Part shown: in pieces, positions 9,201 through 12,200 of the stretch | How the letters are laid out: every line of letters begins with the position of its first letter | Numbering within the stretch: position 1 is the first letter of the stretch | From: Nereocystis luetkeana | Lineage: Eukaryota; Sar; Phaeophyceae; Laminariales; Laminariaceae | Direction: 5' to 3' | Assembly: GCA_031213475.1 (NCBI GenBank) | Contig: JARUPZ010000021.1 | Coordinates: 992,001-1,056,000, forward strand | Length of the DNA stretch: 64,000 nucleotides | Position numbers and translations under genes: made by a program | The notes under the pieces: model-generated | What the model saw: only the letters and a program-made list of their open reading frames with translations | The model's database searches: none | What the model was told of the DNA's origin: nothing

Positions 9201-12200
9201 AGCAGCGGTTGCAATCGAGGGTAGCATTTTTTGGTAGGGCTTGGCACTGGCTTACTCAGTTAGTACCGACCTATACCGTCGTCAAAATCAAGCAGTATAC
9301 TGGATTGCAGCAGTATACTGTCTCTCCTCTCTAGTCTCTGCTCTCGAAACGCATCCAGTGGGCTGCCGAACTATACTGTATGGCGTATTTCTTGGGCGTG
9401 CGCAAGATGAAAATATAAAAACCCCTGGCGAATACACTGGCCAGGTCAATCAGTAGAATACTACAGCCAGTGCATACTGTGCCAGTGCCCAGCCCCTCCT
9501 TATGGCCAAACAACTTGTTTTGACACATGGGACCTCTCATGTGAAGAACAACATACCCCGCGACGTTTTTTTATACTTCGCCACGTTTCGTCAGATACCT
9601 ATACACGTACCGGTATAGGCCATAGGGCTGGTCATCGGATTGGGCGTGCACTACTTTCTCAAAGCCAAGTTTTCACACCTTGGACAGATCATGATCTGTA
9701 TCTATCTGATATATCTACAGTCGATCATCTAGTTCCTCCCCTGCTGTTGTGAGAGGCTGTGCAAGATCTGTAGGATCTGTACAGTACAGATCCAACCCAG
9801 GAAACACGTACTACTGCAGACCATGCAGATTATCGTACGGCTCTCGCCCGGCACCATGGGCTAGATCATACAGACCATACCGATCATACAGATCAGGAAT
9901 ATATCTGCCCTGAAAGATCAAGATCATGAACTGTAGATGATCTGTCACGTGATCTGTCCGAGGTGTGCCAAGTTTTTTACATACCACCACTCTGTCCGGA
10001 AATAAAAGGACGGTTCAACTATTAGCATGAACATAAAAGTGGCCTCGACTTCCGACATCTACATCGCGAAGGACATCTAAAGGTGCAACTCTACTCTACC
10101 TGGAGCACGCATCAAACCGCGAAAGGCGAAACCAATAAACAGCGAAACCGCAAAACCAACTCAGTCGCGAAGTGTTAGCCCACGAATCGGCGTAAAACCT
10201 AGAAAGCATGAAAACCACGAAGCCGTGAAAATACGAAATCGTGGAACCACAAAAACCGTAAAACCGCGAAACCGTGAAACTCTAAAAACCGTGAAATCTT
10301 GCGAGGGTCGACCATTGGTTACTGGATGGTGGGTAGGGTTAGGGTAAAGGCAGAGGTTTTAGGGATGATCCCTTCGCGGCCTCCTTATCTTTACCGCTCT
10401 ACCTGAGCCAAGGTTGGCTAAAAAAAGTGAATTTTGTTTCAGTAGGGGCACTCCATTTCTTTGCTGTTTCCCCTCGTACAGTCGTAAATTCAGCAACGTG
10501 GCAGCTGGTCGGGTTACAACATGGCACAGGGTGGACTTACGGGTTCCTCGTGCATTATTGTGGCCCAAGGCTTTAATGTTGGCGTTAACCGTTGTGGGAC
10601 TGCAATCCCGTTTTGGGCACAAACCGCTCAAATTCTACGAAGTTTGTCCCCAAAACGGGACCGTAGAACTAAAAAGGGTTAAGGTTGGGGTTAGTTAGGG
10701 TCAAAATCGAAACCAAGGAATATGTGGAGGCGTGTTTGGACGAAAAACTTAACTAAAACCCCATTAGGACAGCACTCACTTCCCGTTGTGGGTACAAAAA
10801 ACTTGGAATTGGAGTCACACCGTGGGTGTCTGTACTATGCACTACGGAAGAGGGTCGTTTAACTTAGAACCCGTATATAGGGCAAACTGCTGTCTCAAAT
10901 TCCAAGTGCTTTGTCTCCCTTTTTAGATGGGACTGCAGCACTAAAACGGGTGAGCCATGTTTTTACGACGTATCCACCCGCCGGAGGATTGAAAAAATAA
11001 AAAAATAAACTAATCATGGCTATTTTTGCTAGTGGTGGGGCCAATCGCTATCTAGGTTTGTTGTTGGCTGTGGGTTTACCTTATGCCCGAGAACACGCCG
11101 CAGGCGATGGCGGCCAGCACGAGATAAAGTGCCGACCTTCGGAAGGCCGCCCTGTCTCCTGACTCCACGACGTTGTCGATCATGTTTCCCGTGAAGTGCG
11201 GAATCAGCACCTGAGGCGTTGTGGGGTGGTTGGTCGATGCGACCGGTTGGTTGGTGGTTGGTTGGTCGTACTGATGCGATTCCTTGATTGGCTTGGCTGG
11301 ACGTGATCTACAGTAGTTGCATGCGTATTCGTATGGATATTATTGGCGGATCGGCGGATTGGCTCGTCGATCGATTGTGGAAGTGTGATTGGTTGATCGG
11401 GTTGTCGACCGTTATCTCCCGTGGAGTGCGGAGTCAGCACCTGAAAGAGCTGGTCGGTCGGTCGATGCGACTCGTTGATTGGTTGGTTGGTCGCATGGGT
11501 GTCATTGGATACTTGGTGGGATGGTCGCGATCACGTTTTCCGGGAGGTGCGGAAGCCCCTGAGGCGTTGGTCGATCGGTCGATGCGGTTGATCAAATGGG
11601 TGGGCGGGTGAGTGGGTGGGTGATCGTGTGGGTGTGATTGGTTATAGATAGTGGGTTGATCGAAATTTATTGGGTTGCGTGCGTTGCGGATGACGCTTCC
11701 CGTACAGTACGGAAGCAGCACCTGTTCGCCGGTTGGTCGATAAGATAGGTTGATTGGCTGGTCGGGTGGTCGTATGTATGGGCATGGTTTGGTCAGTTGG
11801 TAGGCTGATCGAAAATGTCGATGGTAATGGTTGATTGCGTTGTCCGTCATTTTCCCTTCGAAACGCGGAATCCGCACACGAGGCGTTGGTTGGTCGATGC
11901 AAGGGTTGGTTTGTCGATGCAATCGGTTGATCGGTTGCTTTGTTGGGTGGTCGTCTTGATGAGATTGGTTGATCGGTTTGGATGGCTGGTCGTATGTATG
12001 TGATTGGTTGGTTGGTTGGATGATCGATCGTACAAATATTATTTCTCGGGTTATAGGTTGGTGGGTTGATTCGATTGGTTGATCCGATCGGTTGGCTGTT
12101 TTGGTTGTTTGGTTGGTTGGCGATCAAACAGGTAGCACGCGCGATTGAATAGAAGTATCACACCCAGCGTACATACATGAGTTTTGACGATAAAAAAAAC

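Follow-up and report, generated by a model that had tools for sequence, protein, structure and literature searches.

How does an intron come to hold a row of copies of its own 3' splice site, each with the start of the following exon attached? The question is raised by an ABC transporter gene on the minus strand of a 64,000-nt stretch of the genome of the brown alga Nereocystis luetkeana (assembly GCA_031213475.1, contig JARUPZ010000021.1, forward-strand positions 992,001 to 1,056,000; G+C 49.9%), which was analysed as a whole and will be called the window. In this gene, the intron preceding exon 6 carries four diverged copies of that kind. We consider the array to be a mirage-type minisatellite (the term comes from amphioxus, see the last section), which probably arose by head-to-tail duplication of the junction segment, the copies having since decayed without constraint; we put the probability of this reading at about 0.85.

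The exon 6 boundary and its copies

The labels E5 to E16 follow the "exon 6" of the first-pass annotation of this DNA, which had been made from the sequence alone. The exons are predicted, the 5' exons of the gene were not placed, and at least one exon lies beyond E16. The encoded protein contains PF00664 (E 3e-58) followed by PF00005 (E 2.8e-10), i.e. an ABC transmembrane domain and then an ABC ATPase domain, and its closest solved relative is ABCB9 (E 5.6e-105); judging from this domain order and relationship, the predicted product is an ABCB9/TAPL-like half transporter. The protein alignment with ABCB9 runs without gaps over the joint of exons 5 and 6, which supports CGCCTCAG|GTGCTGATTCCG as the working acceptor, with 11210 as the first base of exon 6. 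In the 1432-nt intron preceding it, four diverged blocks, each uniting the acceptor region with some 31-40 nt of exon start, were found on the minus strand, followed by a satellite:

11080..11210, minus strand: authentic exon 6, placed by ABCB9 homology and splice sites (acceptor AG at 11211-11212, donor GT from 11079)
11403..11444, minus strand: copy A, in which the acceptor TCTTTCAG is followed by some 38 nt of exon start; AG present; score 47, E 1.8e-14
11528..11562, minus strand: copy B, in which the acceptor CGCCTCAG is followed by some 31 nt of exon start, a small deletion included; AG present; score 36, E 4.8e-9
11689..11724, minus strand: copy C, in which the acceptor CGAACAG is followed by some 33 nt of exon start; AG present; score 37, E 1.1e-10
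11841..11877, minus strand: copy D, about 37 nt of exon start; AG gone (CTCGT|GTGCGG); score 32, E 1.1e-10
11882..12123, minus strand: remainder of the array, a CCAACC/CCAATC satellite (CCAACC/GGTTGG type) that resembles the intron part of the unit

The scores are those of local alignments, which were set against 1000 dinucleotide shuffles of the intron, while the E (expect) values come from acceptor-anchored BLAST. Ranked from first to fourth, the top shuffle scores were 31, 21, 19 and 18, as opposed to 47, 37, 36 and 32 for the real blocks. The first-pass annotation had claimed four diverged copies of the exon 6 acceptor and exon start, three of them retaining the AG, and had named comparison with shuffled sequence as the way to disprove them. 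The claim withstood this comparison, as none of the 1000 shuffles reached any of the scores, and the AG is indeed kept in A, B and C and lost in D. The proposed spacing of 125-160 bp was too narrow: the exon starts of the copies lie at 11440 (A), 11558 (B), 11721 (C) and 11877 (D), and the distances between successive starts, counted from exon 6, are 230, 118, 163 and 156 nt. The last of these falls within the proposed range and 118 and 163 come near it, but the first gap is larger. Acceptor-anchored homology extends from 31-60 nt upstream to 34-40 nt inside the exon, and the units can be aligned on either side of the AG. The exon-derived blocks stop near 11881, and no exon copy was detected in the satellite at 11882-12123.

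When the array was used as a query against the genome (one assembly), a single full-length match was obtained. Similar satellite sequence occurs at no fewer than 21 other scored places, every match lying inside query positions 886-1122 (window 11885-12121), and the exon-copy blocks matched no second genomic place among the scored candidates. The search scored best candidates only and passed over very common words, so its counts are lower bounds and it constitutes a limited test.

Over the aligned unit, identity to exon 6 amounts to 0.79 (A), 0.69 (B), 0.73 (C) and 0.74 (D), and the identity between copies (0.56-0.65) is below that of each copy to the exon. Such a pattern is expected where the source exon is conserved and its copies drift freely. 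Relative to exon 6, substitutions number 14 at first, 21 at second and 11 at third codon positions (over 58, 59 and 55 sites); there is no excess at the third, and nothing points to constraint of the copies at the protein level. The peptides whose likeness to the exon had been pointed out are thus present in the sequence, but the likeness reflects residual DNA identity. Predicted readings that enter from the decoys hit a stop after 78 (A), 18 (B) and 95 (C) codons, and the frame of copy A is unlike that of exon 6. The likeliest status of the exon 6 copies is that of neutral debris.

Copies at other exons and a possible preference for acceptors

The exon 6 case is not unique. Similar structures were found at exons 10 and 11 and, weakly, at exon 5:

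6349..6657, minus strand: array of four exon 10 units (6349-6414, 6425-6493, 6514-6579 and 6591-6657); exon 10 start at 6291
5021..5124, minus strand: one exon 11 copy, 75% across 104 nt, comprising the acceptor region and some 62 nt of the exon, whose start was put at 4918
12977..13006, minus strand: one exon 5 copy, the weakest, 87% over 30 nt, acceptor CAG plus about 25 nt; E 3e-5

The exon 10 units comprise about 35-42 nt upstream and 26-32 nt downstream of the exon start, the start at 6291 being derived from a length match to ABCB9. Three of the four were recovered by acceptor-anchored BLAST; the nearest one was left out because it overlaps the query window. The AG is present in three of them (exon starts 6378, 6457 and 6540) and absent in the fourth. 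The decoy at 6378 (6292-6378), which is the nearest to the exon, keeps its AG, is in frame, contains no stop and would add 29 residues, which makes it a candidate alternative acceptor of exon 10. With so many decoys present, a single in-frame and stop-free case is unsurprising. As for exon 5, its start was taken as 12869, a position that protein homology does not fix. A further exon of the host gene (-4478 to -4320), lying outside the 12 exons tested below, is without local copies. The intron that follows exon 16, below window position 1, contains a minisatellite (L010, about 7640 and downwards) that begins approximately at the donor and whose copies include no more than about 11 nt of exon.

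The frequency of such copies was compared between the 12 acceptors and 12 donors of this one gene, with splice sites placed by motif, and various background points. A point was counted when it had a local copy (E<=1e-3) within 2.5 kb that crossed it by 3 nt or more upstream and 15 nt or more downstream, with the rule mirrored for donors. This sequence is rich in local duplicates, at intron points and at points outside the gene: a first control found them at 52 of 300 points within the introns of the gene and at 27 of 300 points outside it, with no acceptor excess. With a 100-nt query window (60 nt before and 40 nt after the point), three of the 12 acceptors qualified (E5, E6 and E10), compared with 143 of 800 intron points chosen at random in the gene (P=0.37), a background that held points inside the arrays themselves. 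Repeat backgrounds yielded 79/500 for all introns (P=0.29), 59/500 when the introns before E6, E10 and E11 were excluded (P=0.16) and 44/500 for points outside the gene (P=0.08). The exon 11 copy escapes this query window and is found with a longer one (60 nt before and 80 nt after), which was picked afterwards, in the knowledge that exon 11 would come in; four of 12 acceptors then stand against 96/500 points in all introns (P=0.19). Copies crossing donors were found at none of the 12 donors with either query window, an outcome with a probability of 0.09 at the rate of 143/800, and the contrast of acceptors with donors (3 vs 0) gives a Fisher P of 0.22. Among 200 points in exon interiors, sampled with replacement from exons of at least 110 nt, not one had a qualifying copy.

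Origin of the arrays

What can be observed directly are the copies, their order, orientation and divergence, and the recurrence of this structure at further exons. A model to explain them would run as follows. Slippage or unequal exchange would have duplicated the 3' end of the intron together with about 40 nt of exon 6, head to tail. The copy attached to the exon body would have remained the working acceptor, and the upstream copies would have ended up within the intron, functionless and free to decay. More generally, duplicated intron stretches might sometimes take in the junction, and this would be tolerated where a working acceptor stayed downstream.

Several other explanations have to be weighed against this model. 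The array is compositionally simple, and low-complexity CCAACC sequence might have produced matches to exon 6 by chance; the exon-derived blocks nevertheless beat all 1000 dinucleotide shuffles, by which low complexity was ruled out as the cause, and we give chance hardly any credence. An introner or another mobile element with splice sites could be suspected from the satellite that recurs across the genome. Those matches, however, cover only the satellite part and leave the exon-copy blocks uncovered, as far as a search of best candidates that skips common words can tell, and such an element seems extremely improbable. The decoys might also be kept by selection as regulatory poison acceptors, in which case use of A, B or C would lead to a premature stop and to less productive transcript. 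In accordance with this, each of the three retains its AG and ends in a stop, and the stretch upstream of copy A is richer in T than that of the authentic site (4 vs 1 of the 20 nt before the AG); on the other hand, the copies are 21-31% diverged without coding constraint and D has lost its AG, and we regard such selection as very unlikely.

The remaining explanation is a process favouring 3' splice sites, such as repair or template switching coupled to splicing or R-loops, which would copy the acceptor and exon start upstream repeatedly. It agrees with crossing copies at exons 5, 6, 10 and 11, all of them upstream, and with their absence from the donors. With the longer query window, it also agrees with the four of 12 acceptors set against 53/500 intron points when the introns before E6, E10 and E11 are excluded (P=0.03), or against 48/500 points outside the gene (P=0.02). 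Against it stand all four comparisons with the 100-nt query window and that of the longer one with all introns, the post hoc choice of the longer one, the Fisher comparison and the restriction to a single gene. Any excess of acceptors over background would thus be modest, and its appearance depends on the choice of query window and background (P=0.37 to 0.02). The same dependence applies to the proposal in the first-pass annotation that the duplication uses the splice junction: the tandem unit does include the 3' splice site together with the start of the exon and leaves a row of AG decoys, but specific use of the junction stands or falls with these choices. In the repeat comparisons P ranged from 0.29 down to 0.02 according to these choices, and for this reason we raised our estimates of targeting and of the broader proposition given below and slightly lowered that of the main model; targeting still appears unlikely to us.

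Some observations speak against untargeted duplication followed by decay and should be kept in mind. The mild acceptor excess obtained under some choices (P=0.02-0.03) is unlike what untargeted duplication predicts. The growth of the array is deduced from one assembly and one haplotype, and the use of the downstream acceptor (11210) is predicted from protein homology. Finally, the identity of the copies neither clearly rises nor clearly falls as they lie farther from the exon, and it does not fix the order of events; serial growth with the youngest copy beside the exon was rejected on this ground.

A broader proposition would be that 3' splice sites in this lineage recurrently seed tandem arrays upstream, leading to many introns with rows of decoys, some of them usable as alternative acceptors (the best candidate being 6378 of exon 10). 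At present we consider this unlikely. Boundary repeats do provide spare acceptors that could give rise to alternative splice forms or to shifts of the exon start, and the gene raises a question that can be settled by counting, namely how often acceptors are duplicated in comparison with other parts of introns.

Beyond the host gene, coding segments were ab initio guesses. There were 33 coding-like segments near the window, 22 of them outside the gene; one of the 22 (50089-50385) had local copies, consisting of a simple repeat just beyond the segment, and no copy reached into any of the 22. In L002-L008, local copies were present at two of 10 segments tested. At L004 (about 1490-1725), a satellite stops some 20 nt short of a likely acceptor, and at L006 (about 2310-2600) satellite units extend to a likely acceptor, with no clear exon sequence copied in either. 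A 200-kb block contained 40 coding-like segments, many of which were copies of one long repeat. One set of coding-like segments occurs there six times, about 28-34 kb apart (L013-L032, G000:C6:2000001-2200000), which suggests a very long tandem repeat or an element family. Within the window, an unbroken TG dinucleotide run of 344.5 copies occupies 29318-30006, and long open frames on the plus strand at 17532-19948 resemble, in their motifs, the reverse transcriptase of a non-LTR (long terminal repeat) retrotransposon.

Comparison with known systems

Introner-like elements are repeated sequences tied to introns. Unlike them, the splice-site copies described here were matched at no other genomic place in the best-candidate search; no splice-site-bearing element shared by numerous unrelated loci was found, the matches at 21 or more places being satellite only in this limited search. 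Intron gain provides a second comparison. A potato RdRp gene has reportedly gained an intron by tandem duplication involving an AG|GT proto-splice site. In Drosophila, intron gain via tandem duplication of such an AG|GT site has been described (PMC2891723, in the part consulted here). The arrays resemble that case, as outlined there, in being local tandem duplications with splice-site-like AG|GT sequence in which one copy is intronic. They differ in that the copies sit in the middle of the intron and that none of the 12 donors, that of exon 5 included, is crossed by a duplicate. The array copies therefore do not explain both intron ends, and intron gain with both ends derived from one segment was rejected.

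The closest parallel comes from amphioxus, where tandem repeats across exon-intron boundaries have been named "mirages", with the BflGb6 globin and Adh3 genes among the examples (PMC3087553, from which the following excerpted details are taken). The BflGb6 unit consists of the 3' end of an intron and the 5' part of exon 2 and measures 150-160 bp. Two haplotypes carry 6 and 3 units, many of them with splice signals; reverse transcription PCR suggests that splicing is undisturbed, and duplication is considered possible at either exon boundary (PMC3087553). Repeat number variation and splicing were thus studied in amphioxus, whereas the array presented here is known from the sequence of one assembly. 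As far as the excerpts go, its copies are also more diverged (69-79% identity to the exon, compared with 81-100% among BflGb6 units) and its spacing is irregular (118-230 as opposed to 150-160 bp).

A literature search on algae, covering titles and the openings of abstracts, brought up no description of such repeats in algae, which is not proof of their absence there. Mirage-type boundary repeats were earlier described in cephalochordates and are seen here at several exons of one gene; as the host is a brown alga, they would, if our reading is true, be no cephalochordate peculiarity. In the features that the amphioxus excerpts set out, the likeness is close: the exon 6 unit spans the exon-intron boundary, the units contain a splice signal and exon sequence (three of the four copies keep the AG), and the authentic boundary, here set by protein homology, lies at the edge of the array. 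By its sequence, the exon 6 array thus appears to match the "mirage" type of minisatellite already described in amphioxus.
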